This document shows, in pieces, positions 20,386 through 37,823 of a stretch of 38,470 nucleotides of DNA; position 1 is the stretch's first letter, and every line of letters starts with the position of its first letter. Under the pieces are notes generated by a model. It did no database searches. It was not told the origin of the DNA and saw only the letters and a list, made by a program, of their open reading frames with translations. This DNA comes from an uncultured Reyranella sp. GTDB lineage: Bacteria > Pseudomonadota > Alphaproteobacteria > Reyranellales > Reyranellaceae. The stretch spans positions 1 to 38,470 of the forward strand of contig CALFRN010000038.1 of the NCBI GenBank assembly GCA_937919085.1, read 5' to 3'. The translations under genes were made by a program, and so were the position numbers.

Positions 20386-20628
20386 ATGCAAGTCCTCTAC
20401 ATCATCCTGATCGGCCTGCTGGTTGGCCTGGTTGCCCGGTTCCTCACACCTGGTCCCAATCCGCGCGGCATCATCGTCACCGTTGTGATTGGCGTGGTGG
20501 GTGCGGTGATCGCCACCTATGGTGGCCAGGCGCTCGGCCTCTATCACGTTGGCCAGGCCGCGGGATTTATCGGCTCGGTGATCGGCGCGGTCGTGCTGCT
20601 GGTACTGCTGCGGCTGATCGGCCGTTAG
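20386..20628 (+). CDS. GlsB/YeaQ/YmgE family small membrane protein
   Basis: This 80-residue hydrophobic protein has about three transmembrane helices and the glycine-rich pattern of the transglycosylase-associated (GlsB/YeaQ/YmgE) family: LIGLLVGLVARFLTPG, IVTVVIGVVGAVIATYGG and FIGSVIGAVVLLVLL. Members are often stress-induced; biochemical function is unknown. A GGGAG site precedes the ATG. Its TAG stop overlaps the TAA stop of the convergent methyltransferase by two bases. Confidence 0.85.
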   Translation: MQVLYIILIGLLVGLVARFLTPGPNPRGIIVTVVIGVVGAVIATYGGQALGLYHVGQAAGFIGSVIGAVVLLVLLRLIGR

Positions 20629-21113
20629 CCGGCACGATAGAGAAAGTAGCGATCCTTTGGCACGCCGGCCGGCTCAGGCAGGCGTTGCCACCGCGCCACC
20701 TCGAGCGGCTGATTGGCGAGTACGATGCCGCCCGGGGCCAGCAGTGCGTCGAGCGCCGGGCCGAGCCAGGAACCCATCGCCATGTTGGCGGCGTGGTCGC
20801 CGGTGCCGAGATCGGTATGGATCAGTACCGCTGTGGCGCCGAGCTTCCGGGTCGCAGCCACGATCGACTGGCGCGCCTCGCCGAGAAACAGCCGGTCGTC
20901 GGGCGGGACGCAATCGGGATGGGCCGCCACCTTGCGTTCGAAGACATAGATGTCGCGGCCGGGAAACAGTTCGCGCAGATGGTCGTAGGTGCGGCCATTG
21001 CCCAATCCGACTTCGAGGATCGGCCCCGCGAGGCCGTCGACGCTGGGCTTGAGGAAATTCAGGCAGTCCCGCTGCGCCTGCATGCGCGCGATGAAGCTGT
21101 CGAGGCGACTCAT
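20625..21113 (-). CDS. Small class I SAM-dependent methyltransferase
   Basis: The 162-residue protein has ILEVGLGNGRTYDHL as motif I, IYVFERKVAAHP where the ribose-binding acidic residue is expected, and a central AVLIHTDLGTGD segment, ending after the GGIVLANQPL strand. It is short for the fold and has no extra domain. The substrate is unknown. It lies nine bases after the cyclic-nucleotide-binding gene and is probably the last gene of the ABC-exporter operon. Confidence 0.78.
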   Translation of the reverse strand: MSRLDSFIARMQAQRDCLNFLKPSVDGLAGPILEVGLGNGRTYDHLRELFPGRDIYVFERKVAAHPDCVPPDDRLFLGEARQSIVAATRKLGATAVLIHTDLGTGDHAANMAMGSWLGPALDALLAPGGIVLANQPLEVARWQRLPEPAGVPKDRYFLYRAG

Positions 21114-21122
21114 GCTCTTTGA

Positions 21123-21578
21123 CTAATTCGGCTTCGTGGCAGCCTGCAATTTCCTGTTGGTGTCCTCCAGGCGGTGTGCCAGCTCGCGCATGATTTCGAT
21201 CGACAGCTGCGGAAATTCCTCTACCAGGCGGTAGAACATGTCCTTGGTGATCTTGAGCGTGCTCAGAGATTCGCGGGCCTTGATGGTGGCGGTGCGCGGC
21301 ACGTCGCATAGAATGGCGATCTCGCCGAAGAAGCTGTTCTTTTTCATCTCGGCCACGGCGATCTGGCCATCCGTACCTGCCTTGTCGATCAGCACGTCGG
21401 CCACGCCGCCCAGGATCACGTACATCGTGTCGCCCGGGTCGCCCTGATGGCAGACCTCCTGGCCGGCGGCAAAATTCACCCGCTCGCTGGTGAAAGCCAG
21501 AAGCTTCAGTTTGGCCTGTTCCATCTTTGAGAAGATCGGCACCCGCTTGAGCAACTCGACTTCTTCATTGAGGTTCAT
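21123..21578 (-). CDS. Stand-alone cyclic-nucleotide-binding domain protein
   Basis: The 151-residue protein is a single cNMP-binding domain with a C-terminal helix and no DNA-binding or kinase domain. The phosphate-binding cassette is intact: FFGEIAILCDVPRTATIKA, with the Glu that contacts the ribose and the Arg that contacts the phosphate, so binding of cAMP or cGMP is expected. It lies 18 bases downstream of the atypical ABC exporter gene and nine bases before a methyltransferase gene. A regulatory role on the exporter is an inference from position. The class III cyclase at 8145-9497 is a candidate source of ligand. Confidence 0.88.
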   Translation of the reverse strand: MNLNEEVELLKRVPIFSKMEQAKLKLLAFTSERVNFAAGQEVCHQGDPGDTMYVILGGVADVLIDKAGTDGQIAVAEMKKNSFFGEIAILCDVPRTATIKARESLSTLKITKDMFYRLVEEFPQLSIEIMRELAHRLEDTNRKLQAATKPN

Positions 21579-21596: not shown

Positions 21597-24308
21597 CTAC
21601 ACCGAAGCCATGAGTTCGGTGTAGAGGCCACCCTTTGCCGCCAGATCCGACGGCGTTCCTTGTGCGGTGATGCGACCGCCCTGCATGACGACGACCTGCT
21701 CGAACGGCTCGGCCTGCGCTGGCCTGTTCGCGATCCAAACCACCCCGCCATGCTGGGCCGCCAGGATATTGTCGCGGATGCGATCCTGGGTGCGGCCGTC
21801 GAACATGGCGAGCGCCTCGTTGACGATCAGGAGTTGCGGTCGCTTGACCAGCGCCCGCGCGATGCCGAGCTTTTGGCGCTGGGTCGCCGGCAGACGGCGG
21901 CCGGCAACGCCGACATTGTACTCCAGACCGACCTCGACGACCGAATCGCGCAGGTCGAGTTCGTTCAGCACCTCGGCGATCAGCGTGCCGATACGCTCCT
22001 CCGCCCGGGCCTGGCCATACACCAGGCGCCCGAACAGGATGTTGTCCTGCAGGGTGGCGGCGCTGTTGAAGCGCTCGAAGTCGTAGAATTCAACGCTGCC
22101 GCGCAAGTCGGCCGGCAGGCCTTTGGCGAAGGCGTGCCGGGCGGCCAGGATCCGTTCCTCCATGTCTGTGTCGATCAGTCCAAGACGATGGCGCGCCTCG
22201 ATGTAACGGAAGGGCAGCGTCATCAGGCGCGGCCGGTCGGCATCGGGCACGGCTTCGATGCCCTTGCCGCCCAGTCGCTGCAGCAGCAGCCGCACGTTGG
22301 GCAGCTCGTCGGCCGAGATGAAGCTGTACTGTTCGAACAGCGGGTTATCGGGTGACAGGCCCGAGAACAGCTCGACCATGGTCTCGGCGATGCTGAGGCC
22401 CATGCGTTGCAGATCGAGGTCGAGCCCCGTCACCCCCAGCACTGCCAGGACATAGGGTTCGGTGGCGATATTGTCGCCGTCGAACTGCTTTCCGAGTGGC
22501 GTGCCGAAGAGCAGGTTTTCGGCCACCGACAGGTTCTTGTTGTAGAGATCGCCATTGAACGGCTCGACCAGGCCGGCGTAGGTCTCGTTCTGCAGGCGGC
22601 CGTGCAGGTTATGGCGCGCCTTGAGGATCCTTTCGGCAAGATCTGGCCGCTGCGCGGCATCGATGGTGCCACGCAGCCCCAGCGAATAGATGTCTTCGTC
22701 GATCTCGACCAGCCGCAGCGCGTCGACGATCCGCGGCAGCAGGTCGGCCGGCCCGGTCGCGCCCGCCAGCTCGTAGTCTATCCAATCGGCGTTGGGGTCG
22801 AACGGTGGGTTGCCGGCTCGGCGCGATTCCTTCCAGAATACTTCACGCACGGTGCGCGTGGCGTCGTCATAGATGGCCGGATTCACCGGCCTGAACTTCA
22901 GTCCGAACAACAGGTTGTCACGCACCGACAGCGGAAAGAGATAGGTGTCCTGTCCGACATAGGAGGTACGCGCGCCCAGCACGTACTCGGGGATCTGGAA
23001 GAAGTCCTTGCCGTCGAGCCTAATCGAGCCGCTCGTCGGCAGCACCAGACGGGCCAGCACCTGGCCAAGTACGTCCTTGCCCGAGCTGGCGCCGCCGATC
23101 ACCGCCAGCCGGGTCGAGGTCGGCACGACCATCGAAACGGCGTCGAGCAGCCGCACCCTTCCGTCTTCGGAGAAGGTCACCCCGGAGAGGGCGAGTTCCT
23201 TGCCGAGCGGTGGCGTCGGGCCGTCCGGGATCGCCTGCAGCTCCGGCAGCATCATCCCCTCGGGCTGGAACTGGTCGATCACCTGTTCGTACTTGATCTG
23301 CACGTCCTGGCGCTGCTGGTCCCAGTCGAGCAGCTCCTTGATCGGCGACGGCAGATCCTTGTAGGCGAGCAAAACGCCGACCACGGCGCCCACGTCCATC
23401 TTGCCGGTGATCGCGAAGTAGCCGCCGATCAGATAGATCGCAAATGGCGTGGCCTGGGAGAGAAAGGTGTTCCAGAATTTGGCAACGAACTTCTTCTGGT
23501 AGAGATCGAAGCGAATCTTGAAGATACGGCCCAGCCGTTCGGAAATGTCGGCGCGCTCGTAGTTGGCCGCACCATGAACGTGGATTTCGTGAACGCCGTC
23601 GGCGGTTTCGGCGATGCGGCCGGCGAGCAGCCGCGCCGTGAGCTGCCGCTCGCGACCGAGAATCAGCACCGGGCGGCGCAGCCTCGGCACGATCGCCATC
23701 TGCACCCCCAGCAGGATGACAACGACGAAGCCCAGCAGCCAGTTCTGCAGCATGATGAAAATGATGGCCGTCAACGCCTGGCCACCGAGGAACATCGGTG
23801 CGACGAAGGCGTCGCCGATGAAGCCGCCCAGCGGTTCGACCTCGTCCTTGACCATGGTGGCCAGCTCGGCCTGCTTGACCTTGCGGAAATGGGCGGCCGG
23901 GAAGCGCAGGATTCGGTCGTAGAGTTCGTAGCGCAGGCGGCGCAGCATGCGCTCGCCCATGCGGCCCTTTTGGGTATTGATCGTCTTCTTGAACAGGCCG
24001 TTCACCGCCACGGCGCCCAGGAAGACGAAGCTCATGACGACGAGGTATTGGAGCTGGTCGACCTGGAAGCCGTCGAAGAAGCGGATCACCGTGCCGGGCA
24101 TGATGGCCGAAAGGTCGAGTTCCCAGACCAGGAAGGGGATGGTTTTGCTGTCCTTGAAGGCGTTGCCCTGGATGCCGTTGTTGATGACAGCCTTCGGCAC
24201 GGTAAGCGACAGGAAGTAGAAGACCTGCGCCAGCACCACGAGCGCCAGGATCACAAGCTGCTCGGGCCTGCTGTGGCGCCAGATGTAGGTGAACAGATTG
24301 CGTTGCAT
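21597..24308 (-). CDS. Atypical ABC exporter with degenerate, internally repeated ATPase domain
   Basis: This 903-residue protein has an exporter-type transmembrane domain (residues ~15-340) followed by one greatly enlarged nucleotide-binding domain. Walker A is GGASSGKD (405-412), with Asp instead of Ser/Thr after the Lys; the Q-loop Gln453 is present. Walker B and signature come some 400 residues later instead of about 100: LPATQ (806-810) replaces LSGGQ, Walker B is LLIVNE with Asn830 for Asp though Glu831 remains, and the H-loop His is Asn861. Three copies of a segment around N-[LI]-LFG (465-469, 598-602, 756-760) show that the helical part has been multiplied. The start at 24308 is the ATG before QRNLFTYIW; no strong binding site is seen. 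A cNMP-binding gene follows. ATP hydrolysis may be weak or absent; substrate unknown. Confidence 0.85.
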   Translation of the reverse strand: MQRNLFTYIWRHSRPEQLVILALVVLAQVFYFLSLTVPKAVINNGIQGNAFKDSKTIPFLVWELDLSAIMPGTVIRFFDGFQVDQLQYLVVMSFVFLGAVAVNGLFKKTINTQKGRMGERMLRRLRYELYDRILRFPAAHFRKVKQAELATMVKDEVEPLGGFIGDAFVAPMFLGGQALTAIIFIMLQNWLLGFVVVILLGVQMAIVPRLRRPVLILGRERQLTARLLAGRIAETADGVHEIHVHGAANYERADISERLGRIFKIRFDLYQKKFVAKFWNTFLSQATPFAIYLIGGYFAITGKMDVGAVVGVLLAYKDLPSPIKELLDWDQQRQDVQIKYEQVIDQFQPEGMMLPELQAIPDGPTPPLGKELALSGVTFSEDGRVRLLDAVSMVVPTSTRLAVIGGASSGKDVLGQVLARLVLPTSGSIRLDGKDFFQIPEYVLGARTSYVGQDTYLFPLSVRDNLLFGLKFRPVNPAIYDDATRTVREVFWKESRRAGNPPFDPNADWIDYELAGATGPADLLPRIVDALRLVEIDEDIYSLGLRGTIDAAQRPDLAERILKARHNLHGRLQNETYAGLVEPFNGDLYNKNLSVAENLLFGTPLGKQFDGDNIATEPYVLAVLGVTGLDLDLQRMGLSIAETMVELFSGLSPDNPLFEQYSFISADELPNVRLLLQRLGGKGIEAVPDADRPRLMTLPFRYIEARHRLGLIDTDMEERILAARHAFAKGLPADLRGSVEFYDFERFNSAATLQDNILFGRLVYGQARAEERIGTLIAEVLNELDLRDSVVEVGLEYNVGVAGRRLPATQRQKLGIARALVKRPQLLIVNEALAMFDGRTQDRIRDNILAAQHGGVVWIANRPAQAEPFEQVVVMQGGRITAQGTPSDLAAKGGLYTELMASV

Positions 24309-24477: not shown

Positions 24478-25761
24478 ATGCCCACCAGCAGCCGGTCCAA
24501 GCGTGTGCTGATCTATAGCCACGACTCCTTCGGGCTTGGACATGTCAGCCGTTGTCGCACCATCGCCAATGCCATCGTCGAGGCCGACCAGTCGGTTTCC
24601 GTCCTGATCCTGTCGGGTTCGCCGATGATCGGGTCCTACGAATTCCGTTCCGGCATTGATTTCGTGCGCGTGCCCGGCGTCATCAAGAACGTCACCGGCG
24701 ACTACGACTCGGCCAATCTTCGTGTGGTGGTCGAGCACACGCTGGAGATGCGGACCCGCATTATCCGGGACACCGCCGACATCTATCGTCCCGATCTCTT
24801 CATCGTCGACAAGGAGCCTCTGGGTCTGCGCGGCGAGGTCGGCCCGGCGCTGAGGCTGCTCAAGGACCGCGGTACGCCGCTGGTGCTCGGACTGCGCGAT
24901 GTCATGGACGACCCGGCGGCGCTGGCCCAGGAATGGGAGCGCAAGAACGTCGTACCGGCGCTGCGCGATCTTTACGACGAGATCTGGATTTACGGCCTGC
25001 CGCAGATCAACAAGCCGATGACCGGTATCGATCTACCGGCTTCGGTGCGGCACAAGATGGTCTACACCGGCTATCTGCACCGCGACCTGCCGCTGCATGC
25101 CGATATCCCGCACGAAGTCGGCGACATCGACGGGCCGTTCATCCTGGTCACCGCCGGCGGCGGCGGCGATGGCGAGGATTTGATCGACTGGGTGCTGGCA
25201 GCCTACGAAGCCGACCCGCATATTCCCTACGGCGCGGTAATCGTGTTCGGCCCGTTTATGTCGGCCACGGCGCGTGATGCATTCCGTGATCGTGCCGAGA
25301 AGTTCGCCAACATCCGCACGCTTACCTTCACCAACAATCTCGGCGCCCTGATGAAGCGTGCGGCGGGTGTCGTTGCGATGGGCGGCTACAACACGTTCTG
25401 CGAGATCCTGTCCTTTGACAAGAGGGCGATCATCGTGCCCCGTACCCGGCCGCGGCTGGAGCAGCTCATCCGCGCCCGCGCGGCCCGCAATATCGGCCTG
25501 ATCGAGATGCTCGATGCGGACAAGGGCCGGGATCCCCAGGCGATGGCCACGGCGCTGCGGCAGTTGCCGCAGCAGGGCCTGCCGAGCGATGTGGTGGTGC
25601 CCGGTCTGCTCGACGGCCTCGGTAACGTGTGGCGCCTCGTCGCCAAGCAGCTCATGCATCCGCACCGGGGCCCGGCGCCGCTCGACATGACGGCGAGTGC
25701 CGCCGAACCGGCGCCCGCCGGCGATCCGGTCGGCGGTTCGCCGGCGCGCGCCAGGATCTGA
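24478..25761 (+). CDS. MurG-like GT-B glycosyltransferase (COG4671-type)
   Basis: The 427-residue protein has a GT-B fold with an N-terminal half starting RVLIYSHDSFGLGHVSRC, the glycine-rich acceptor loop of MurG-like enzymes, and a C-terminal half with FILVTAGGGGDGEDL and the donor-binding AMGGYNTFCEILSF followed by RPRLEQLIRA. Donor and acceptor are unknown. It is the first gene of a long plus-strand operon; the ATG at 24478 has GGGGGAGG six bases upstream. A paralogous enzyme is encoded at 28796-29932. The C-terminal 30 residues are low in complexity (Ala/Pro-rich). Confidence 0.86.
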   Translation: MPTSSRSKRVLIYSHDSFGLGHVSRCRTIANAIVEADQSVSVLILSGSPMIGSYEFRSGIDFVRVPGVIKNVTGDYDSANLRVVVEHTLEMRTRIIRDTADIYRPDLFIVDKEPLGLRGEVGPALRLLKDRGTPLVLGLRDVMDDPAALAQEWERKNVVPALRDLYDEIWIYGLPQINKPMTGIDLPASVRHKMVYTGYLHRDLPLHADIPHEVGDIDGPFILVTAGGGGDGEDLIDWVLAAYEADPHIPYGAVIVFGPFMSATARDAFRDRAEKFANIRTLTFTNNLGALMKRAAGVVAMGGYNTFCEILSFDKRAIIVPRTRPRLEQLIRARAARNIGLIEMLDADKGRDPQAMATALRQLPQQGLPSDVVVPGLLDGLGNVWRLVAKQLMHPHRGPAPLDMTASAAEPAPAGDPVGGSPARARI

Positions 25762-25775
25762 CCGCTGGCCCACTG

Positions 25776-27050
25776 ATGTCGAGTTCGACCAGTGCAACGG
25801 GTGCGCGCGTCGCGGTCGTGTTGAAGGGCTGGCCACGGCTCTCCGAGACCTTCATCGCCCAGGAGATCGCCGGCCTCGAGGCCCGCGGTGTCGCGCTTGA
25901 AATCTGGTCGTTGCGCCGGCCGACCGACAAGTCGCTCCATCCCGTCCATGAACGGGTGGCCGCACGCACGGTCTATCTTCCGGAATACCTCAAGGACGAT
26001 CCGCGCCGTGTAATGGCAGGCTGGCGGGCATCACGTCGCCTGCCGGGCTACGCCGCCGCGCGGCAGAAATTTCTCGCCGATCTGCGGAGAGACCCGACGG
26101 CCAATCGGGTCCGGCGCTGGGGCCAGGCGCTGGTTCTGGCCGCCGAGCTGCCGCGGTCGGTCGATCGGCTCTATGCACATTTTCTGCATACTCCGGCGTC
26201 GGTGACGCGATATGCCGCCGCCTTGCGCAGCCTGCCATGGAGCGTGTCGGCGCATGCCAAGGACATCTGGACCAGCGAGCCGTGGGAGGTGAGCGAAAAG
26301 CTTGCGGATTGCGCCTGGCTGGCGACCTGCACCAATGTCGGCCTGCAGCGGCTGAAGGAACTGGCGCTGCAGCCCGAAAAGCTGCACCTCGTCTATCACG
26401 GGCTCGATCTTGCACACCTGCCGCCGCCACCGCCCATGCGGCCGCGCCGGAATGGGTCGGATCCGCACGATCCCGTCGTCGTGCTCTCGGTCGGCCGCAA
26501 GGTCGAGAAGAAGGGCTACGACGATCTGCTGGACGCGCTGGCGGCGCTACCGCGGGGGCTCAACTGGCGCTTCGAGCATATCGGCGCCGGGGGGCTTTCC
26601 GATCCTTTGAAGGCGAAGGCTGCATCGCTCGGTATCGCCGATCGCTGCGTCTGGCTCGGTGGGCAGCCGCAGAAGGCGGTGTTCGCGGCCCTCGCGCGCG
26701 CCGATCTGTTCGCACTCGCCTGCAAGAGGGCGGCTGATGGCGACCAGGACGGGTTGCCCAACGTATTGATGGAAGCAGCGCACCAGGGCCTGCCCGTCGT
26801 GTCGACGCAGGCCGCGGCGGTGGGCGAGTTCATCGAGGACGGCGAGACCGGTCTCCTCGTGCCGCCAGGCGCACCCAGCGCTCTTAGTGCGGCGCTCGCG
26901 CGCATGATCGCCGATCCCGACTTGCGCCAGTCCCTCGCGCGACGTGCCGGCGAGGTCGTGCGCACACGCTTCTCTTACGACGCCGGCATCGACTGGATAG
27001 CTACGGCGCTGGGACAGCACCACTCGGCCTCCGCCCGCGCGGCCGAGTAG
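25776..27050 (+). CDS. Family 4 glycosyltransferase
   Basis: The 424-residue GT-B enzyme begins RVAVVLKGWPRLSETFIAQEI, the start typical of the exopolysaccharide and colanic-acid type GT4 enzymes, and has the C-terminal Glycos_transf_1 domain: VLSVGRKVEKKGYDDLLDA, FAALARADLFALA and DGLPNVLMEAAHQGLPVVST with the catalytic EX7E-type acidic pair. The ATG at 25776, 14 bases after the previous stop, is preferred over an extension that overlaps the upstream gene. It probably adds a sugar to a cell-envelope or secreted glycan. Confidence 0.9.
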   Translation: MSSSTSATGARVAVVLKGWPRLSETFIAQEIAGLEARGVALEIWSLRRPTDKSLHPVHERVAARTVYLPEYLKDDPRRVMAGWRASRRLPGYAAARQKFLADLRRDPTANRVRRWGQALVLAAELPRSVDRLYAHFLHTPASVTRYAAALRSLPWSVSAHAKDIWTSEPWEVSEKLADCAWLATCTNVGLQRLKELALQPEKLHLVYHGLDLAHLPPPPPMRPRRNGSDPHDPVVVLSVGRKVEKKGYDDLLDALAALPRGLNWRFEHIGAGGLSDPLKAKAASLGIADRCVWLGGQPQKAVFAALARADLFALACKRAADGDQDGLPNVLMEAAHQGLPVVSTQAAAVGEFIEDGETGLLVPPGAPSALSAALARMIADPDLRQSLARRAGEVVRTRFSYDAGIDWIATALGQHHSASARAAE

Positions 27051-27054
27051 CCCC

Positions 27055-28173
27055 ATGCGCGTGCTGCTTCACACGCCGTTGAAGCTACCGGACAGCCCCT
27101 CTCCCTCGGGTGATCGGGAAATGGCGCGTGGCCTGCTGCGTCTGTTGCGTCGTCTCGGCCATCGCGTGTCCATGCCGGCGCTCAGCCGGGTCGCGCCCGG
27201 AGTGCCGGCGCCCGACGACCACCTCGCCCTCCAGCGCGACGCCCGTCGCCGCGCCGCGCGGCTGGTCGAGCGGTGGCGGGCGCTGCCGGCCGGGCATCCC
27301 GAGCGCTTCGAGCTGTGGTTCACCTATCATTGCTACTATCGAAAACCGGACTGGTTGGGACCGCTCGTCACCGGCGCCCTCGGCATTCCCTACGTGATCG
27401 CCGAGGCGAGTCACGCGCCGCGTCGGGCCCAAGGACCAACGCGGCTGGGACATCGCGCCGTCGAGCGGGCGCTTGGCGCCGCCGACCTGGTGCTGACGGT
27501 CAATCCCCGCGACGTCGCCGGCGTGCGCGCCCGTCTCGGGCCTCAGGGGCGCCAGCTGTGGCTGCCGCCCTTCATCGATGCTGCGCCATTTTGTTCCGCC
27601 GCCGCCTCGCGCCCCCCTCATGTGGGGCCGCCGCTGCTGATGAGCGTCGGCATGATGCGCACGCGCGACAAACTGGAATCCTACCGTGTCCTGGCCGGAG
27701 CATTCGCGCGCCTGGCGGACCGATCCTGGCGTGCGCTGATCGTGGGCGATGGGCCGGCACGGGCCGAGATCGAGGCGTTGATGGCGCCATTCGCCCCGCG
27801 TGTAGGCTTCGCCGGTGCCGTTTCGCGCGAGGCGTTGCCGGCACTTTATGCGTCCGCCGACCTTTACCTTTGGCCCGCGATCAACGAAGCCTACGGCATG
27901 GCGTTTCTCGAAGCCCAGGCGGCCGGCCTGCCCGTGGTTGCCGGCCGCACCGGCGGTGTGCCCGCCGTCGTTGCCGATGGCGTGTCAGGCCTGCTGACGC
28001 CAATCGGCGACGCCGCAGCCTTCGCGGTCGCCGTGGCGCGGCTGCTTGACGACCCGGCTGAGCGTCTGCGCCTGGCGTCGGCGGCGACGGTGCGCGTACT
28101 GGCGCATCACGACGAACGGGCCGCGGCCCGCGCCCTGGCGACGGCGCTCGGCACCCTTCGGGTTCGGCGATGA
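27055..28173 (+). CDS. Family 4 glycosyltransferase
   Basis: The 372-residue GT-B protein begins MRVLLHTPLKLPD and contains a C-terminal Glycos_transf_1 domain with LLMSVGMMRTRDKLESY, GRDG-like ALIVGDGPARAEIE, LYLWPAINEAYGMAFLEAQAAG and VAGRTGGVPAVVADG. The acidic pair in NEAYGMAFLEAQ is intact. It starts four bases after the preceding stop and overlaps the next gene by four bases, so it is an internal gene of the operon. Specificity is unknown. Confidence 0.88.
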   Translation: MRVLLHTPLKLPDSPSPSGDREMARGLLRLLRRLGHRVSMPALSRVAPGVPAPDDHLALQRDARRRAARLVERWRALPAGHPERFELWFTYHCYYRKPDWLGPLVTGALGIPYVIAEASHAPRRAQGPTRLGHRAVERALGAADLVLTVNPRDVAGVRARLGPQGRQLWLPPFIDAAPFCSAAASRPPHVGPPLLMSVGMMRTRDKLESYRVLAGAFARLADRSWRALIVGDGPARAEIEALMAPFAPRVGFAGAVSREALPALYASADLYLWPAINEAYGMAFLEAQAAGLPVVAGRTGGVPAVVADGVSGLLTPIGDAAAFAVAVARLLDDPAERLRLASAATVRVLAHHDERAAARALATALGTLRVRR

Positions 28174-28799
28174 GCGGCGTGCCCTTCGCCATTCTGCGTC
28201 ATGCGCCGACCGATTGGAATGAACGCGGTCTTCTGCAGGGACTCAGCGACACCACACTGAGCGCGGCTGGAGAGGCTGCCGCCCGGCACTGGTATCTGCC
28301 GCCACCGGCTGACGGATGGCGGCGGGTCGCAAGCCCCCTGCAACGTGCCCGGCGTACCGCCGAGCTGCTGCGCCCGTCTGCGGCCGTGAGCGTCGATTCG
28401 GCGTTGCGCGAAATGAGTTTTGGCGCCTGGGAAGGTCGCACCCTGGCGGCGCTGCGGGCCGAAGGAGGCGAAACCTTTGCTGCGGCCGAACGCGCCGGTC
28501 TCGATTTCCAGCCGCCCGGCGGCGAGTCGCCGCGTGGTGCCATGGCCCGGCTTGGCGGCTGGGCGGCGGCCGTCGCGCGGGCTGGCGAGCCGGTCGTCGC
28601 GGTCTCCCACAAGGCGGCGATCCGCGCCCTGCTGGCGCTGGCCACGGGCTGGGATATGACCGGCAGGCCGCCGTTCAAGCTGGATTGGCGTTCTGCCCAT
28701 TTCTTCCTGGCCGACCGCGACGGCAAGGTGCGGGTCGATCGTCTCAATGTGTCCCTGGAACGAGGCGCCGGTTCCGACTCCCCAAAGGGCGTGCCGTGA
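28170..28799 (+). CDS. Histidine phosphatase family protein (phosphoglycerate-mutase-like)
   Basis: The 209-residue protein has the catalytic RHA motif (Arg10-His11, in FAILRHAPTDWNERG), a second acidic site in REMSFGAWEG and the second catalytic His in AVSHKAAIRALLAL. RHG is changed to RHA, as in many phosphatases of this superfamily. It is expected to hydrolyse a phosphate ester, possibly a sugar phosphate or isoprenoid phosphate given its glycosyltransferase neighbours; that is inference. The ATG overlaps the preceding stop by four bases, and its own stop overlaps the next GTG start. Confidence 0.87.
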   Translation: MSGVPFAILRHAPTDWNERGLLQGLSDTTLSAAGEAAARHWYLPPPADGWRRVASPLQRARRTAELLRPSAAVSVDSALREMSFGAWEGRTLAALRAEGGETFAAAERAGLDFQPPGGESPRGAMARLGGWAAAVARAGEPVVAVSHKAAIRALLALATGWDMTGRPPFKLDWRSAHFFLADRDGKVRVDRLNVSLERGAGSDSPKGVP

Positions 28800-29932
28800 A
28801 ACCGCGGGTATTCTTCTATGTTCAGCACCTTCTCGGCATCGGCCACCTTCGTCGCGCCGCGACGCTGGCGCGCGTCCTGGCGGCGAACGGGTTCGACGTG
28901 CTGCTGGTGTCGGGTGGAGCGCCCACGCCGCTCGAAACCGGAGCGGCACGTGTCTATCAGCTGCCGCCGGTGCGGGCGCGAGACGATAGCCTGCGCGAGC
29001 TCGCTCAGCTCGACGGCGCACCGCTCGACGATCATTTCCGTGCCGACCGCACGCGCGAGCTTTTGGGCCTGTTTCATGCCGAAGCACCGAACATCCTCAT
29101 CACCGAGCAGTTTCCCTTCGGGCGCACGCAACTTCGATTCGAGCTGTTGCCGTTGATCGAGGCGGCAAAGGCGCTCCGGCCGCGGCCGCTGATCGTCTCT
29201 TCGGTGCGCGATGTCGTGCGCCGGTCGGCCTCGCCGCAACGCATTGCGGAAGCGATCGAGACATTCGAGGCCTTCGACTTCGCGATGATCCACGCCGATC
29301 CGGTGCTGGTCGGATTTGGCCGGAGCTTCACGGGCTGGGAACGCGTCAAGGATCGTGCTTTCTATACTGGCTATGTCGTTGAAGCCGATCTTGGGAGTCC
29401 GACAGGCGGGGCCGGCACGGGCGAAGTCATCGTATCGGTGGGAGGTGGTGCGGTCGGCGCGCCGTTGCTGCGGGCAGCCGTTGAAGCGCGGCCGCTTGGC
29501 CCCCTGGCCGACAGGACCTGGCGCCTCCTGCTGGGCGCGGACGTGCCGGCGCACGCGCGCGCCGGCCTTGAAGCGGCCGGCGAGGGCTTCGTCGTCGAGG
29601 CGGCGCGCAGCGATTTCGCCACTTTGCTGAGGAACGCGACCTTGTCGATCTCCCAGGCGGGCTACAACACGGTGATTGAAACGCTGTGCTGTGCCGACCG
29701 TGCGGTACTGGTTCCGTTCGGCACCGACCGCGAGACCGAGCAGGCCGATCGCGCGGGACTGCTCGCCGAGCGCGGCATGGTTGCCACTGTACCGGCTGGC
29801 GGGCTGTCACCGGAGAGCCTGGCCGCCGCCGTCCGGCGGGCGCTGGCGGGTCCGTCGATCCGCAGCTTCCCGCCCTGCGATTCGCGCGGCGCGGCGGCGA
29901 CGGCCGAATTGCTGTGGGCCCGCGCATCGTGA
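28796..29932 (+). CDS. MurG-like GT-B glycosyltransferase (COG4671-type), second copy
   Basis: This 378-residue protein shares its plan with the enzyme at 24478-25761: an N-terminal FYVQHLLGIGHLRRAATLA loop and a C-terminal donor site with SQAGYNTVIETLCCADRAVLV and the glycine-rich VIVSVGGGAVGAPLL. The start is a GTG at 28796 that overlaps the phosphatase stop as GTGA; the upstream extension of the frame is only a shadow of the phosphatase gene. Conserved glycine-rich loops suggest it is active, with a nucleotide-sugar donor not yet known. Confidence 0.85.
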   Translation: MKPRVFFYVQHLLGIGHLRRAATLARVLAANGFDVLLVSGGAPTPLETGAARVYQLPPVRARDDSLRELAQLDGAPLDDHFRADRTRELLGLFHAEAPNILITEQFPFGRTQLRFELLPLIEAAKALRPRPLIVSSVRDVVRRSASPQRIAEAIETFEAFDFAMIHADPVLVGFGRSFTGWERVKDRAFYTGYVVEADLGSPTGGAGTGEVIVSVGGGAVGAPLLRAAVEARPLGPLADRTWRLLLGADVPAHARAGLEAAGEGFVVEAARSDFATLLRNATLSISQAGYNTVIETLCCADRAVLVPFGTDRETEQADRAGLLAERGMVATVPAGGLSPESLAAAVRRALAGPSIRSFPPCDSRGAAATAELLWARAS

Positions 29933-30705: not shown

Positions 30706-31212
30706 TTGAGTACCGCCGACCTGCGTTATCCGCGCCAGACCTTGTGGGCCGACTATGTTCGCGCCGCGATTGGCGTCGTGTTGTGCGGCACCCCCCTGCT
30801 GTTGCTGGAGGTCGATCCCTGGGTCGCTTTTTTCCTGGCCGGCGGATTCGTTCTCTTTGCCCTGTTCCTCGTGCGCACCGCGTTGCGGCACCGGACCCGC
30901 TATCTCCTGGCGCCCGACAGCCTCTGCGCCGATGGGCCGGCCGGAACGCTGGTCGAGTGGGCGCGGCTTGACCGGCTGAAGCTCAGCTATTACTCGACCA
31001 AGCGCGACCGGGCGGACGGCTGGATGCAACTCAGCATCGGGTCGGCGGGCGGTCGGGTGGTGAAGGTCGATTCCTCGCTCGAGGGCTTTCACGATGTCGT
31101 CGAGCGGGCTGCTCGCGCCGCCGAAGCGGGCGGCGTCAGTCTGAGCGAGTCGACGCGGGTGAATTTGCGCGCAATGGGTATCGCAGTGGCGGATCGGGAA
31201 GAACTGGCATGA
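30706..31212 (+). CDS. Small membrane protein of unknown function
   Basis: The 168-residue product has two transmembrane helices (about residues 18-36 and 39-58) and a cytoplasmic-looking C-terminal domain of about 105 residues rich in beta-type sequence (YLLAPDSLCADGPAGTLVEW, WMQLSIGSAGGRVVKVDSS), reminiscent of bacterial PH-like domains but not recognisable with confidence. The start is a TTG at 30706 with GGGAGA five bases upstream. It overlaps the ABC ATPase gene by four bases (ATGA), so it may be a companion of that transporter. Confidence 0.72.
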   Translation: MSTADLRYPRQTLWADYVRAAIGVVLCGTPLLLLEVDPWVAFFLAGGFVLFALFLVRTALRHRTRYLLAPDSLCADGPAGTLVEWARLDRLKLSYYSTKRDRADGWMQLSIGSAGGRVVKVDSSLEGFHDVVERAARAAEAGGVSLSESTRVNLRAMGIAVADREELA

Positions 31213-33182
31213 AGGATCTGCTGCGCGTCGAGAACCTGACCGTGGAATTCGGCGTTCATGAGGGCACGCTCCGGGCGGTCGACAAGGCGTCGTTCTCGAT
31301 CCCGCCCGGGGGCACGCTGGCACTGGTGGGCGAGTCGGGTTCCGGCAAATCGGTCTGCAGTCAGGCCATCATGGGCCTGCTGCCACGCACCGCCACGATC
31401 CCGTCAGGCTCGATCCTGTTTGCGGATCCCCGCGCCGGCGGTGCCACCATCGACATCGCGAAGCTCGACCGTTCCGGCCCCGAAATCCGGAGTATCCGCG
31501 GTGGGCTGATTTCCATCATTTTCCAGGAGCCGATGACCTCGTTGTCGGCATTGCACACGGTGGGCGACCAGATCGGCGAGGCGGTCGAGCTGCATGGCGG
31601 TGACCGCCTCAGCGACATCCATACGCTGGGCGACCAGCTCGGCGAAGCAGCGGCCAAGTCCGGCCGTCGGCTGAGCCGGCCGGAGATCGACGAACTGACG
31701 CGCGACATGCTGCGGATGGTCGGCTTCCCCGATCCCAAGCGGGCACTGCGAACCTATCCGTTCGAACTCTCCGGTGGCCTGCGCCAGCGCGCCATGATTG
31801 CCATGGCACTGGTCTGCCGCCCGGCCCTGCTGATCGCCGACGAGCCGACCACGGCGCTCGACGTCACCATCCAGGCCCAGATCCTCCAGTTGATGAAGGA
31901 TCTGCAGAAGGAACTGGGCATGGCGTTGCTGATGATCACCCATGATCTCGGGGTGGTTGCCAACGTCGCCGACGACGTCGTCGTGATGTACCGCGGCAAG
32001 GTGGTCGAGTCGGGCGACCTGCGCGATATCTTCCGCGACCCGCAGCACCCCTATCTCAAGGCCCTGCTCCATGCGGTGCCGCGCTTCGACATGAAGCCTG
32101 GCGAACGGCTGGTGCCGATCCGCGATATCACCGCTGCCACAGGCCATCTTCTCAAGGAAAAAGCGTCGGTGACGCCGACGCCGACCTTCAATCCCGACGC
32201 GCCGGTCCTGAAGGTCCGCCATCTGTCGAAGACCTTCAGCATCCGCAAGGCCGACTCGCTGATCGAATCCCTGATGGGCGGCGGCGTCACCCGTAAGATC
32301 CGCGCCGTCAACGACGTCAGCTTCGATGTCATGCGCGGCGAATGTCTCGGTCTGGTGGGCGAATCGGGCTGCGGCAAGACCACGCTCAGCAAGATGCTGA
32401 TGCGCGGCGTCTCGGCCGACGCCAACAACGATGCCGGCCAGGTCGTCTATGACGATTGGGGCCGCAAGATCGACGTACTGTCCCTCGAGGGCGAGGCGTT
32501 GAACAGCTTCCGCACCAAGCTGCAGTTCATCTTCCAGGATCCGTTCGGGTCGCTCAATCCGCGCATGACGGTCTACGACATCCTGGTCGAGCCGCTGGTC
32601 ATCCACCGCAAGGGCGACGATGCCTACCGCCGCGAGATGGTGAGCGAGCTGATGGAAATGGTCGGGCTCGATCGCCGCCACCTCAGCCGCTACCCGCACT
32701 CGTTTTCCGGCGGCCAGAGGCAGCGCATCGGCATCGCGCGCGCGCTGGCACTCAGGCCTGATGTGCTGATCTGCGACGAACCGGTGTCGGCGCTGGACGT
32801 GTCGATCCAGGCGCAGATCCTGAACCTGCTCAAGGACCTTCAGAAGCAGCTCGGCCTTACTTACCTGTTCATTTCGCACAACCTGGCGGTGGTCGATTAT
32901 ATCGCCGACCGCATCGCGGTGATGTGCGCCGGCCGCCTGGTCGAGCTGGCGCCGTCCGGCGAACTGTTCCGCAACCCGCTTCATCCCTATACCCGGGCAT
33001 TGTTGTCGGCGGTGCCGGTCCCGGATCCCGGCCGCCGGCTCGATCTCGGCGCGCTGATGGAGGGCAAGGCATCCGATCCGGCCGAGTGGCCCGAGCCCTT
33101 CGCCGACACCGGCCGGCGTCCGCTGTTCTGGACCGAGGTCGAGCCCGGACACTATGTGCGCGTCGCGCGGGAGGCGAACTGA
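31209..33182 (+). CDS. Dual-ATPase subunit of a peptide/Yej-type ABC importer
   Basis: The 657-residue protein is a fusion of two OppD/OppF-type ATPases. The first has Walker A GESGSGKS (41-48), signature LSGGLRQR and Walker [13 protein letters not shown]; the second has GESGCGKTT (about 384), FSGGQRQR and [12 protein letters not shown]. Both are intact, and each ends with the HPYLKALL or HPYTRALL oligopeptide-type tail. This resembles YejF, the fused ATPase of the YejABEF peptide importer, more than separate DppD/DppF. An imperfect 22-codon duplication lies in the first domain (31554-31685). The ATG overlaps the preceding stop by four bases. Permeases follow at two and eight bases; no binding protein is encoded. 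Confidence 0.95.
31554..31685 (+). repeat. Imperfect tandem duplication inside the first ATPase domain
   Basis: Two adjacent 66-base units encode [19 protein letters not shown] and [18 protein letters not shown]. The first ten residues differ at only two positions (V/L and I/L). The duplicated part is the stretch after the Q-loop that in OppD-type ATPases normally occurs once (xTVGDQI-type), so the helical subdomain is lengthened by about 22 residues. Confidence 0.7.
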
Positions 33183-33184
33183 CC

Positions 33185-34183
33185 ATGCTGCGCTTTGTCG
33201 TCCGGCGGGTGCTGCTGATGGTCCCGACCCTGTTCATCATCAGCGCTCTCGTCTACTTCATCATCGACCTGCCTCCTGGCGATTGCGTGACCTCGCAGAT
33301 CGACGAGCTGCTGGCGCGCGGCGATCCGGACGCGCAGCACCGCGCCATCGAATTGAGGCACCTCTACAACCTTGATGACCCGCTGTGGCAGCGCTACCTC
33401 GAATGGGTCGCCGGCATCTTCCGTTGGGATTTCGGACTTTCCTGCCAGGACACCGTTCCGGTGTCGGAACTGATCGGCGAGCGCATGATGCTCACGCTCG
33501 TCATGGAATCGGCCACCATCATCTTCATCTGGACCGTTTCGTTCGTCATCGGCGTCTATGCCGCCACCCACCAGTACCAGATGGGCGACTATGTCGCCTC
33601 CTTCGTCGGCTTCATCGGCCTCGCCATCCCGAACTTCCTGCTGGCGCTGGTATTGCTCTATGCCGGCAAGGTCTATTTCGGCCTGTCGATCGGCGGCCTG
33701 ATGGACGCCGAGTACATCGGCCAGCCGATGAGTTGGGGCAAGATCGTCTCCGTGTCCGAGCATCTGATCATCCCGGTAATCGTCATCGGCACCTCGGGAA
33801 CCGCCGGCATGATCCGGCGGCTGCGTGCCAACCTGCTGGATGAACTGCAGAAGCAGTATGTCGTCACCGGTCGTGCCAAGGGCCTGCCGCCATTGAAGCT
33901 GCTGGTCAAATATCCGCTGCGCCATGCCATCAATCCGTTCGTCGCCGACATCGGCGGTCTGCTGCCCGACGTCATTTCGGGCTCGGTCATCGTCTCGGTC
34001 GTGCTGTCGCTGCCGACCACCGGGCCGATGCTGCTGGGCGCGCTCAAGACCCAGGACGTCAATCTCGCCGCCACCTTCCTGCTGTTCGTGGCGACGCTGA
34101 CGGTGATCGGCATGTTGATCTCCGACCTGGCGCTGGCGGCGCTGGATCCCCGCATTCGCTTCGGCGCCAAGTCGGAAAAGTGA
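33185..34183 (+). CDS. Peptide/Yej-type ABC importer permease (DppB/YejB-like)
   Basis: The 332-residue permease begins MLRFVVRRVLLMVPTLFII, the standard N-terminal helix of the DppB family, followed by a periplasmic loop and five further helices. The cytoplasmic EAA-type coupling loop is VTGRAKGLPPLKLLVKYPLR, and the last part contains the usual SGSVIVSVVLSLPTTGPMLL and a DPRIRFG tail. ATG at 33185 lies two bases after the ATPase stop, which rules out the longer overlapping frame. Confidence 0.93.
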   Translation: MLRFVVRRVLLMVPTLFIISALVYFIIDLPPGDCVTSQIDELLARGDPDAQHRAIELRHLYNLDDPLWQRYLEWVAGIFRWDFGLSCQDTVPVSELIGERMMLTLVMESATIIFIWTVSFVIGVYAATHQYQMGDYVASFVGFIGLAIPNFLLALVLLYAGKVYFGLSIGGLMDAEYIGQPMSWGKIVSVSEHLIIPVIVIGTSGTAGMIRRLRANLLDELQKQYVVTGRAKGLPPLKLLVKYPLRHAINPFVADIGGLLPDVISGSVIVSVVLSLPTTGPMLLGALKTQDVNLAATFLLFVATLTVIGMLISDLALAALDPRIRFGAKSEK

Positions 34184-34191
34184 GGCCATCC

Positions 34192-35379
34192 ATGACCGAC
34201 CGGCCCTCCGACGACACCAGCGGCACCCCGCGCCGCACCCCGCACTACGTCAACCGCGAGCCATGGGATCCCTATGTTTCCGAGCGGCTGACCGCCGAGC
34301 AGGAAAAATACTACATGGCCGGGCAGTGGAAGCTGATGTGGTGGCGCTTTCGCCGCCATCGGCCGGCTGTCGCCGCGATGATCTTCCTGGCGCTGATGTA
34401 TTTCACGACCCTGATCAGCGAGTGGATTGCGCCCTACGATCTGCACGCGCGTCACTCCGGCTATATCTTCGCGCCGCCGCAGTCCGTGCACCTGTTCCAC
34501 GAAGGCAATTTCGTCGGTCCCTTCGTCTATGCGCTGAAGACCTCCCGCGATCTCGAGACGCTGCAGCGCATCTACACCCCCGATCCGACCAAGCCGATGC
34601 CGCTCCGCTTCTTCTGCCGCGGCGCGCCCTACGAGTTCTGGGGCCTGGTCCACGGCAACTTCCACTTCGTATGCCCGCCCGAGGGAGGCCAGTTCTTCTG
34701 GCTGGGCACCGACCGCCTCGGCCGCGACATGTTCAGCCGCATCGTCTACGCCGCCCGTATTTCGCTCACCATCGGTCTCATCGGCATCGCGCTGTCGTTC
34801 GCGCTGGCGCTGATCCTGGGCGGTCTGGCGGGCTACTACGGCGGCTGGGTCGACAACGTCGTCCAGCGGCTCACCGAGATCATCAAGAGCTTCCCGCACT
34901 TGCCGCTATGGCTGGCCTTGTCGGCGGCGCTGCCGATCACCTGGTCGCCGCTGCTGATCTATTTCGGCATCACCATCATCCTGGCGCTGCTCGACTGGCC
35001 GAGCCTGGGACGTGCCGTACGCTCCAAGCTGCTGTCCCTGCGGGAGGAGGATTACGCGCTGGCCGCCCAGATGATGGGCGCCAAACCCGGCCGGATCATC
35101 GGCCGCCATCTGCTGCCGGGCTTCATGAGCCATCTCATCGCTTCGGCCACACTGTCGATCCCCTCGATGATCCTGGCCGAAACCGCCCTGTCGTTCCTTG
35201 GCCTCGGCCTGCGGCCACCGATCACTTCCTGGGGCGTGCTGCTGAACGAGGCCACCGACATCAACGTAGTGGCCGTGAACTGGTGGCTGATGCTGCCGGT
35301 CGTGCCGGTGATCCTTGTCATCCTTGCCTATCAGTTCATGGGTGACGGCATGCGCGACGCCGCAGATCCCTACGCCTGA
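34192..35379 (+). CDS. Peptide/Yej-type ABC importer permease with long periplasmic insert (DppC/YejE-like)
   Basis: The 395-residue permease is about 100 residues longer than a standard DppC. After a 57-residue hydrophilic N-terminus and the first helix (~58-80) there is an added periplasmic stretch (~85-168, with Cys142 and Cys161) before the family signature LGTDRLGRDMFSRIVYAARISL. The coupling loop AAQMMGAKPGRIIGRHLLPG and SIPSMILAETALSFLGLG are typical. YejE of the microcin C/peptide importer has a comparable insert. ATG at 34192 has GAGG six bases upstream. The stop codon is inside a perfect 16-bp hairpin. Confidence 0.93.
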   Translation: MTDRPSDDTSGTPRRTPHYVNREPWDPYVSERLTAEQEKYYMAGQWKLMWWRFRRHRPAVAAMIFLALMYFTTLISEWIAPYDLHARHSGYIFAPPQSVHLFHEGNFVGPFVYALKTSRDLETLQRIYTPDPTKPMPLRFFCRGAPYEFWGLVHGNFHFVCPPEGGQFFWLGTDRLGRDMFSRIVYAARISLTIGLIGIALSFALALILGGLAGYYGGWVDNVVQRLTEIIKSFPHLPLWLALSAALPITWSPLLIYFGITIILALLDWPSLGRAVRSKLLSLREEDYALAAQMMGAKPGRIIGRHLLPGFMSHLIASATLSIPSMILAETALSFLGLGLRPPITSWGVLLNEATDINVVAVNWWLMLPVVPVILVILAYQFMGDGMRDAADPYA

Positions 35380-35739: not shown

Positions 35740-35776
35740 CGGGCCCCCTTCAACGGCCATGCTACGACGGCGCCAC

Positions 35777-36409
35777 ATGGTGCCCTTCCTCCTCGAAGTT
35801 TCGGACTTGGCCTGCCGTCGCGGCGGCAGGCCTGTGTTCGAGCACATGTCCTTTGGCCTGGCTGCCGGCGAATTGCTCGCGCTCACCGGCCGCAATGGCA
35901 GCGGCAAGACCACCCTGCTGCGGGCGCTGGCCTTGCTGGTACGCCCGGTAGCCGGGACGATCCGCTGGCAGGGCAAGGATGTGGCCGCCGATCCCGAGGC
36001 CTGGCGCGGCCGGCTCGCATGGTTGGGTCATCTTGAAGGACTGAAAGGCGATCTGACGGTCGCCGAGAACCTCGAAGTCGCCGAAAGACTGCGGGGCCGC
36101 ACCGTGCCTGACAGGGTGCGCCTCCTGGCCGCCCTTGCGACCTTCGATCTTTCCGCTCTGGCCGATCGGCCCGTGAGAACCCTCTCGGCCGGCCAGCGCC
36201 GCCGCGCCGCACTCGCCCGTGTGGTGCTGTCCGATGCGCCGGTGTGGCTGCTCGACGAGCCACTCAACGCGCTGGACGCGCCGGCACAGGCGGGCTTTCG
36301 CGCGGCGCTTGGAAAACATCTCGCCGCCGGCGGTCTAGCCGTCGCCGCCACCCACGCCGAGCTCGGACTGGCCGGTGCACGCGCGCTTACGCTTGGATCT
36401 CGGGAATGA
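35777..36409 (+). CDS. ccmA: Heme exporter ATP-binding protein CcmA
   Basis: This ATPase of about 210 residues has Walker A GRNGSGKTT, Q-loop region LGHLEGLKGDLTVAENL, signature LSAGQRRRAALARVVL and Walker B VWLLDEPLNALD, with the late AATHAELGL H-loop. With CcmB it forms the ABC complex that, together with CcmCD, loads heme onto CcmE for cytochrome c maturation. The start is uncertain: ATG at 35777 gives the usual N-terminus (MVPFLLEVSDLACRRGG), ATG at 35759 would add six residues; neither has a good ribosome-binding site. An intrinsic terminator lies just upstream. The stop overlaps ccmB (ATGA). Confidence 0.93.
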   Translation: MVPFLLEVSDLACRRGGRPVFEHMSFGLAAGELLALTGRNGSGKTTLLRALALLVRPVAGTIRWQGKDVAADPEAWRGRLAWLGHLEGLKGDLTVAENLEVAERLRGRTVPDRVRLLAALATFDLSALADRPVRTLSAGQRRRAALARVVLSDAPVWLLDEPLNALDAPAQAGFRAALGKHLAAGGLAVAATHAELGLAGARALTLGSRE

Positions 36410-37071
36410 GCGGCTTTGCCGGCCTTGTCGCGCGCGACCTGCGCCTGGTGTGGCGCCGGCCTGGCGACGTCGCCGTGGTGCTCGCCTTCTTCGTCGTCGC
36501 CACGATCCTCTTTCCGCTCGGCATCGGGCCGGAGGCCAATGTTCTGGCCCGAATCGCGGCGGGCGTGCTGTGGTGTGCCGCGCTCTTCGCCGCCCTGCTG
36601 TCCCTCGACCGGCTGTTCGCGGCGGACCACGAGGACGGCACCCTCGACCTGCTGCTGCTGGCGCCGTGGCCGCTCGAGCTGGCCGCCCTGGCCAAGTGCT
36701 GCGCTCACTGGATTGTGACCGGCCTGCCGCTGGCTGCCCTGGCCCCGGTGCTGGGTGTGACTTTCGGGCTGGAGCCCAGGGTCCTGTGGGCCCTCGCCGC
36801 TACGCTTCTGGTCGGCACGCCGACCCTGTCGCTGATCGGCGGGCTGGCGGCGGCGCTGACGCTGGGTGCGCGCAAATCGGGGGCCCTGCTGGCCTTGCTG
36901 GCCTTGCCGCTCTGCGTGCCGACCCTGATCTTTGGTGCCGGCGCCGTCGAATCGCTGGCGACGGGAGGGGATTTTGGCGCCCATATCGCGATCCTGGCGG
37001 CGCTGGCCCTGGTGGCGCTGGCAACCACGCCGTGGGCGATTGCCGCTGCCTTGCGGCAGGCTGGCGAATAG
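36406..37071 (+). CDS. ccmB: Heme exporter membrane protein CcmB
   Basis: The 221-residue integral membrane protein has six predicted helices. It begins MSGFAGLVARDLRLVWRRPG and has the CcmB segments FAADHEDGTLDLLLLAPWPLE and VGTPTLSLIGGLAAALTLGARKSG. It is the permease partner of CcmA. The ATG at 36406 overlaps the ccmA stop by four bases; the frame's upstream extension is antisense-like noise over ccmA. The length is normal for the family. Confidence 0.94.
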   Translation: MSGFAGLVARDLRLVWRRPGDVAVVLAFFVVATILFPLGIGPEANVLARIAAGVLWCAALFAALLSLDRLFAADHEDGTLDLLLLAPWPLELAALAKCCAHWIVTGLPLAALAPVLGVTFGLEPRVLWALAATLLVGTPTLSLIGGLAAALTLGARKSGALLALLALPLCVPTLIFGAGAVESLATGGDFGAHIAILAALALVALATTPWAIAAALRQAGE

Positions 37072-37103
37072 ACTCAGGTCCATGAATGGATAGATAGAGC
37101 GAC

Positions 37104-37823
37104 ATGGCCGACCTTCACTTTCTCGCCAGTCCCGCGCGCTTCAGGCGGCTGAGCCAGCGCGTGCTGCCGAGCCTCGCCTTGGCGACCGTGCTGATGCTGG
37201 CGTTCGGCCTCTACCTGGCACTGATCCAGTCGCCTCCCGACTATCAGCAGGGCGACACGGTGCGGATCATGTTCGTGCACGTGCCCTCGGCCTGGCTCGC
37301 CATGGCGGGCTACGGCCTGCTGGCGGCGCTCGGCGCCTCGCTGCTGATCTGGCGCCATCCACTGGCGGCGCTTATGGCGCGGGCTTCCGCGCCGGTCGGC
37401 GCCGGCTTCTGCGCCGTGTGCCTGCTGACCGGCGCGCTGTGGGGCCGGCCAATGTGGGGTGCCTACTGGGTGTGGGACGCCCGGCTCACCTCGATGCTGC
37501 TGCTGTTCTTCCTCTATCTCGGCCACATCGCCTTGAGCCGCGCCTACGACGAGCCCGAGCGCGGCGATCGTGCCGCCGCCATCCTGGCGCTGGTCGGCGT
37601 GATCAACCTGCCGATCATCAAATTCTCGGTCGACTGGTGGAACACCCTGCATCAGCCGGCCTCGGTGGCGCGGCTGGGCGGGCCCAGCATCCATCCCTCG
37701 ATCCTGGTGCCGCTGCTGTGGATGGCCGCGACCCTGTTCCTGTTGTTCGTGCTGCTGGTGCTGTTGCGCACCGATACCGAGATCGACCGCCGCCGCCTCG
37801 AGAACGCCGAGGTCCAGTCATGA
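37104..37823 (+). CDS. ccmC: Heme lyase/transport protein CcmC
   Basis: The 239-residue protein has six transmembrane helices and the tryptophan-rich heme-handling motif WGAYWVWDARLTS (WGxxWxWD), with conserved His residues in the periplasmic loops (FVHVPSAW and TLHQPAS). CcmC delivers heme to CcmE in the periplasm. It starts 32 bases after ccmB with AGAG near the ATG. Its stop overlaps a five-codon mini-ORF that bridges to ccmD. Confidence 0.95.
   Translation: MADLHFLASPARFRRLSQRVLPSLALATVLMLAFGLYLALIQSPPDYQQGDTVRIMFVHVPSAWLAMAGYGLLAALGASLLIWRHPLAALMARASAPVGAGFCAVCLLTGALWGRPMWGAYWVWDARLTSMLLLFFLYLGHIALSRAYDEPERGDRAAAILALVGVINLPIIKFSVDWWNTLHQPASVARLGGPSIHPSILVPLLWMAATLFLLFVLLVLLRTDTEIDRRRLENAEVQS

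Follow-up and report, generated by a model that had tools for sequence, protein, structure and literature searches.

A family of type IV ABC-exporter-like proteins without a complete catalytic set, and its likely cyclic-nucleotide-binding partner, in Reyranella and other Alphaproteobacteria

What role is left to an ATP-binding cassette (ABC) exporter whose ATPase motifs are degenerate and whose reading frame is kept intact? The question is raised by an open reading frame (ORF) at positions 21,597 to 24,308 of a contig from an uncultured Reyranella sp. (Alphaproteobacteria, Reyranellales; CALFRN010000038.1, assembly GCA_937919085.1), the whole analysed stretch of which, 38,470 nucleotides, is termed the window. 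This ORF encodes an intact type IV ABC-exporter-like protein of 903 residues. Its nucleotide-binding domain (NBD), judging from the motifs found across its family, probably works without the usual burning of ATP, and by analogy with known transporters it is read here tentatively, at a probability of roughly 0.45, as a dead scaffold that would link a sensor of cyclic nucleoside monophosphates (cNMP) to glycan-related transport by the membrane part, driven otherwise than by ATP. A sequence-only reading of the same DNA had proposed one ABC exporter with a degenerate NBD, an intact frame and hence a non-standard role; the degenerate NBD, the expanded helical part and the intact, conserved frame all argue for such a role. 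The cNMP-binding gene, the glycan locus and a set of relatives reduced to the membrane domain, none of which that reading mentioned, shape the interpretation given below.

The protein has the architecture of type IV exporters, a six-helix transmembrane domain (TMD) followed by an NBD, in Pfam matches, in its AlphaFold model and in structure alignments. ABC_membrane and ABC_tran are the only Pfam domains at E<=0.001, the latter covering just the first part of the NBD (Table 1), and the best NCBIfam match, MsbA_lipidA (TIGR02203), scores 176.1 bits against a curated cut-off of 602, below the MsbA threshold. The AlphaFold model of all 903 residues (predicted local distance difference test, pLDDT, 83.7; predicted template-modelling score, pTM, 0.77) is aligned over its whole length by type IV exporters in both Foldseek and VIA-align; TM287/288 and TmrAB are among the matches, as are SUR structures at Z about 26. 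Because the full canonical NBD of ComA aligns to the model (239/239 residues, Z 27.3, root-mean-square deviation (rmsd) 2.1, across model residues 366-901), the extra ~300 residues constitute an insertion in an otherwise complete NBD. Exporter sequences align to the protein in stretches, such as residues 70-469 and 785-890, leaving ~300 residues unmatched.

Judged by sequence, members of the family have in common not any exact substitution but the lack of a full catalytic set. None of 172 distinct member sequences, which include near relatives and some that are cut by contig ends, has the signature LSGG[QEM] (LPATQ in the window protein), four have the Walker A pattern GxxGxGK[ST] (GGASSGKD in the window protein), and six have the Walker B pattern hhhhDE (LLIVNE in the window protein). 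No member combines two of the three patterns, as against all three in 28 of 30 MsbA_rel controls from the same class. Among 65 divergent members, the most that any passes is four of seven catalytic checks, a level reached by eight. Position 412 is D or E in 47 of the 65 and S or T in 5, position 830 is N in 31, D in 14 and S in 12, position 831 is E in 29, and position 861 is H in 18 and N in 4. The motif columns of the family are not specially conserved (Walker A 0.58 and the Walker B pair 0.49, versus a mean of 0.56), in contrast to those of the controls (Walker A 0.95 and the Walker B pair 1.0, versus a mean of 0.68). The sequence-only reading had placed every motif correctly, Asn861 and the three N[LI]LFG segments included; its claim that the key ATPase residues are altered holds across the 65 homologues as a loss of the complete set, and does not hold as a conservation of Asp412, Asn830 and Asn861 themselves. 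Homologues with canonical motifs, which it had named as evidence against itself, are absent in that none of the 172 members has all the motifs, with some relatives keeping some of the residues.

The frame is shared throughout the order, where 76 of 76 genomes match at E<=1e-30 (the source genome included, and some matches cut by contig ends), and it recurs in the class, in 98 of 289 genomes sampled, at E<=1e-60. At the level of the phylum, the family profile matches 32 of 398 sampled genomes at E<=1e-80, 31 of them from the same class and the remaining one through a TMD-only contig. Named relatives occur in Reyranella, Kiloniella, Mesorhizobium, Rhizobium and Agrobacterium vitis, and in some metagenome-assembled genomes labelled Betaproteobacteria, which may reflect binning errors or transfer. 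The source genome has one such gene, its next match having 24% identity. Ratios of nonsynonymous to synonymous substitution rates (dN/dS) in seven pairs are 0.06-0.11 for the whole protein, with the TMD as the most constrained part (0.02-0.07), the N-terminal NBD core at 0.10-0.23 and the insert at 0.06-0.15. An assembly or frameshift artefact joining pieces of separate genes, the other objection foreseen by the earlier reading, is ruled out by the recurrence of the same long frame in the order and the class, and a recent pseudogene is ruled out by the dN/dS values and the conservation.

The inserted residues appear to be extra copies of a unit of the NBD itself. The segment N[LI]LFG occurs at residues 465, 598 and 756 and [AE]ERILxARH at 558 and 717 (earlier given as 559 and 718, counted from ERIL), and since 0 of 100,000 shuffles of the protein contain the former three times or the latter twice, the repetition is above chance. 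Profile-profile comparison with hhalign, using profiles built from the 65-member divergent alignment, relates copies 2 and 3 at 97.9% (E 5e-13), copies 1 and 2 at 89% (E 2e-6) and copies 1 and 3 at 82% (E 1e-5), each E-value referring to one comparison, versus 0.1-0.4% in three controls (two against the TMD and one against the N-terminal part of the NBD); neighbouring segments share 8 and 6 residues at their cuts, none of them inside the main alignments. All of 45 homologues have N465, N598 and N756; in a separate set of 66 rows N598 and N756 never vary and N465 is kept in at least 90%. Within the bounds of the copies in Table 1, the AlphaFold model runs three times through a strand, a short NLLFG helix, further helices and a long 'ARH/ARAL' helix, and the Walker B strand comes after copy 3. 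Copies 1 and 2 modelled alone have no Foldseek match at E<=0.001 (best E 1.1). In VIA-align the top five of 22 rows at Z>=2 for this model are ABC exporters, four of them lying on copy 2 (residues 587-729; 71-73 residues, Z 4.6-5.1, rmsd 2.7-3.1), and the next, unrelated row has Z 2.7; because the Z values are low, this match is taken as supportive only. Against solved structures, the insert has no match at E below 0.03 that reaches past the first ~40-60 of its residues. A triplication of the Q-loop/helical/signature-helix unit, which the earlier reading had described for the helical part, is well supported by the profile comparisons; the secondary structure of the model agrees with it, and structure alignment supports it weakly. 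Open-access PubMed Central papers yielded no mention of tandem copies of an ABC helical subdomain and no description of this exporter family with its degenerate NBD. In three loci (L068, L207 and L208) the TMD and the Walker region have strongly diverged and copies 2 and 3 of the helical unit are well kept, as if the repeats counted for more than the nucleotide site.

The likely partner of the exporter, on the strength of its domain match and gene linkage, is a cNMP-binding protein of 151 residues encoded next to it. Linkage was scored by script over 116 loci, 36 plus the best 80 of 548 confirmed candidates in a named scan; these loci are not independent of one another, and their proportions lean to close relatives because the best 80 were taken and near relatives were included. 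The cNMP-binding protein is adjacent on the same strand in 99 of the loci, fused in 9 and absent in 8, and is thus linked in 108; three of the eight loci scored as absent (L079, L086 and L136) have an adjacent cNMP-binding protein by hand reading that allows for over-long ORF starts. In long members of the family (1003-1103 residues) the cNMP domain forms the C-terminal part. Of the 108 partners, 102 show the phosphate-binding cassette pattern, and two of the six misses are intact by eye.

Glycosyltransferases resembling those beside the window exporter are found near the family member in 71 of the 116 loci. In Rhizobium johnstonii 3841 (plasmid pRL11) and Sinorhizobium meliloti (pSymB), the operon begins with a predicted adenylate/guanylate cyclase (a weak domain match, over its cut-off at 28.2 versus 21.9 bits), an Opp-type ATPase, a binding protein and permeases, and continues with glycosyltransferases, the exporter and the cNMP-binding protein. 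Opp permeases lie within the flanks of 28 of the 116 loci, and in Azospirillum oryzae a long member (3225 bp) adjoins Opp and glycosyltransferase genes. Another exporter-type ORF with a TMD lies within the flanks of one of the 116 loci and of none of the other 115.

The same TMD also stands alone, without an NBD, in proteins of ~400-434 residues from Thalassospira, Pseudosulfitobacter, Ruegeria pomeroyi, Phaeobacter inhibens, Defluviicoccus and other alphaproteobacteria. Residues that these TMD-only proteins share with the family and that differ in the 30 controls include Q17, K107, N111, E158, R266, K277, P288, K317, Q331 and D335. Scanning eight TMD-only loci (3-15 kb each) with an NBD profile matched 0 of 801 ORFs, and the control, the window, gave three matching ORFs. 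Of the four plasmid-borne cases examined, three have copper-resistance genes annotated in their surroundings, and the neighbours of the Defluviicoccus gene are a resistance-nodulation-division (RND) efflux system. Neither the TMD-only proteins nor the window protein have a Pfam match to SbmA/BacA, matching ABC_membrane instead. In a tree that has the 30 MsbA_rel-type controls as the sole other exporter family included, a 100/100 branch splits the family plus the TMD-only proteins from the controls. The TMD-only clade falls inside the family in the free tree and in 200 of 200 bootstrap trees (sister branch 97/74), but no starred branch forces it there, and the approximately unbiased (AU) test gives p 0.56 for a placement outside the family, the constrained tree being slightly better. 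Because the AU test leaves the outside placement unrejected, nesting is not claimed; these proteins are closely related to the family and may branch within it or next to it. One of them (L206:1-1146) comes from a genome of another class, where the 3.2-kb contig cuts it short; its sequence is the same as that of a plasmid protein of Phaeobacter inhibens P88, and it may therefore be contamination or a recent transfer.

MsbA stripped of its NBD can move ethidium by means of a pH gradient (PMC4979069), and SbmA, a transporter that descends from an ABC TMD, is driven by protons (PMC13316013). These precedents, taken with the facts of the family, suggest a membrane part that works without canonical ATP hydrolysis and an NBD that couples it to the cNMP sensor. 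The exporter-like protein would then be a type IV homodimer that has given up canonical ATP hydrolysis, its dead NBD and extra helical units forming a dimeric scaffold and a docking site for the cNMP-binding protein. Binding of cyclic AMP (cAMP) or cyclic GMP (cGMP) would move the scaffold and so gate the membrane domain, which would transport a surface-glycan intermediate, an oligosaccharide or a related solute (a guess from the glycan locus), either along a gradient of protons or other ions or by passive movement, in the manner of NBD-less MsbA and SbmA.

Several observations weigh against this reading. The Walker A residue at position 411 is Lys or Arg in 60 of the 65 divergent homologues and the Walker A Gly is kept, and a subgroup with a fused cNMP domain (L069, L193 and L195), perhaps an intermediate stage of catalytic loss, keeps GKS and VVDE without LSGGQ; nucleotide may therefore still bind. 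The NBD core is under purifying selection, which is compatible with leftover catalysis. In MsbA, transport was lost when the Walker A Lys was deleted with the NBD present but not when the NBD was removed (PMC4979069), so a dead NBD can block the TMD and the precedents do not compel the conclusion. A cyclase ORF like the rhizobial one is found in just 9 of the 116 loci, within flanks that are mostly <=6-7 kb.

The leftover residues are also what favours a protein that is still driven by ATP, a slow or unusual ATPase under cNMP regulation whose rearranged site would be built from the acidic residue that follows the Walker A Lys and from residues of the extra helical units: besides the kept Walker A residues, E831 and the purifying selection on the NBD core, RQK of the signature helix is retained and one subgroup has GKS with VVDE. 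This is nonetheless unlikely, given the lack of LSGG[QEM] in all 172 members and of any member with two of the three motifs, the ordinary conservation of the motif columns, and substitutions that differ between members, unlike those of a re-invented site. Equally unlikely is a non-transporting membrane scaffold or regulator, similar to SUR, that recruits the cNMP-binding protein and the glycosyltransferases and has either glycan synthesis or the Opp importer under its control; the linkage of both to the exporter and an insert as constrained as the rest of the protein would fit it, but the TMD is the most constrained part and occurs alone elsewhere, which suggests that it has a function of its own.

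There is precedent for heterodimeric exporters in which one site is degenerate, and two of these, TM287/288 and TmrAB, are among the structure matches; canonical exporters are also present elsewhere in the genome, so that the protein might be half of such a pair with a canonical exporter hydrolysing the ATP. This is improbable: a second exporter-type ORF with a TMD is nearly always missing from the flanks, and with Walker A, Walker B and signature all altered, at least one composite interface would by the usual mechanism be without a complete site. A gated channel like CFTR, opened by the cNMP-binding protein, would make sense of a dead NBD with a dedicated cNMP-binding partner but is very improbable, the surroundings being mostly a glycan locus and not an ion-homeostasis locus.

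The family is a variant within the known ABC exporter kind. With MsbA-type (type IV) exporters it shares the order of TMD and NBD, the full-length fold alignment and profile similarity (176 bits to MsbA_lipidA), and it differs from them by its score below the cut-off, its missing catalytic motifs, the ~300 extra NBD residues and its cNMP partner. TM287/288 and TmrAB resemble it in fold and in having altered catalytic residues, but the window locus has no nearby canonical partner gene and all its motif classes are altered. SUR and CFTR (ABCC) are ABC-exporter folds that have turned regulator or channel and have one or more degenerate sites. The window protein is similar to these in combining an exporter fold with a degenerate NBD, SUR structures being among its matches, and dissimilar in its single half-size chain, bacterial cNMP partner and fuller loss of motifs. 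An exporter-type TMD without ATPase is known for SbmA/BacA (SLiPT; PMC13316013) and would be the state of the window protein as well, which, in contrast, keeps a large NBD fold and has no SbmA/BacA Pfam match.

A doubtful evolutionary extension of the scaffold reading is that the lineage left primary transport altogether. The NBD, made larger by its repeated helical subdomain, would have become a dimeric sensor platform independent of ATP, through which the partner, on binding cAMP or cGMP, would open a secondary transporter or channel; an offshoot or a sister group would have lost the NBD and moved into copper-resistance operons. If true, this would be a second independent route, beside that of SbmA, from an ABC pump to a transporter not driven by ATP, with an intermediate that carries a dead engine. 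Hydrolysis of ATP is what defines an ABC exporter; a widespread, strongly constrained family in which no member examined has the full catalytic set is a natural test of a TMD acting alone, and also informs how an ATPase domain gets re-used. The linkage to cNMP and glycan genes in the model rhizobia R. johnstonii 3841 and S. meliloti opens the question to experiments in laboratory strains.

Table 1. Coordinates of the exporter-like protein, its parts and its neighbours in the window, and of TMD-only loci (numbered within each locus).
Feature	Coordinates	Strand	Basis or remark
ABC-exporter-like protein, degenerate NBD, 903 residues	21597..24308	minus	Pfam ABC_membrane 19-312 and ABC_tran 388-482; homologues share start Met
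TMD, residues 1-350	23259..24308	minus	Pfam, AlphaFold model, exporter structure alignments
Degenerate Walker A GGASSGKD, residues 405-412	23073..23096	minus	
Copy 1, Q-loop/helical/signature-helix unit, residues 448-571	22596..22967	minus	hhalign, secondary structure
Copy 2, residues 581-729	22122..22568	minus	hhalign, secondary structure, weak VIA-align match to ABC exporter helical subdomains
Copy 3, residues 739-821, running into degenerate signature helix	21846..22094	minus	hhalign, secondary structure
Degenerate signature LPATQ, residues 806-810	21879..21893	minus	
Degenerate Walker B LLIVNE, residues 826-831	21816..21833	minus	
H-loop position Asn861, in IANRP 859-863	21726..21728	minus	
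cNMP-binding protein, 151 residues, likely partner	21123..21578	minus	PF00027, 65.8 bits vs cut-off 27.5
Methyltransf_17 protein, next gene downstream of cNMP gene	20625..21113	minus	Pfam; 32/116 loci
Glycosyltransferase (GT28-C-like), divergent neighbour	24478..25761	plus	Pfam
GT4-type glycosyltransferase	25629..27050	plus	Pfam (query from 25773), NCBIfam
GT4-type glycosyltransferase	27055..28173	plus	Pfam, NCBIfam
Histidine phosphatase family protein	28170..28799	plus	Pfam
Glycosyltransferase (GT28-C-like)	28793..29932	plus	Pfam
Opp-type importer	31209..35379	plus	fused ATPases 31209-33182; permeases 33185-34183, 34180-35379
TMD-only loci	L203:5543-6781, L204:5531-6727, L205:5001-6197, L275:6761-8065		12-15 kb around each scanned
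Further TMD-only loci	L276:6746-7984, L278:6758-8020, L279:6725-7987		12-15 kb around each scanned

For the rhizobial operons, the available part of the Clr paper (PMC5498481) contains nothing on the exporter locus. In Rhizobium leguminosarum 3841, pRL110056 is named in PMC11103875 as an O-antigen biosynthesis gene required for root colonization; by gene numbering it might sit near the exporter cluster on pRL11. Directly past the Opp-like importer of the window, at 35759-37820, lie ccmA-ccmB-ccmC-like cytochrome c maturation genes.

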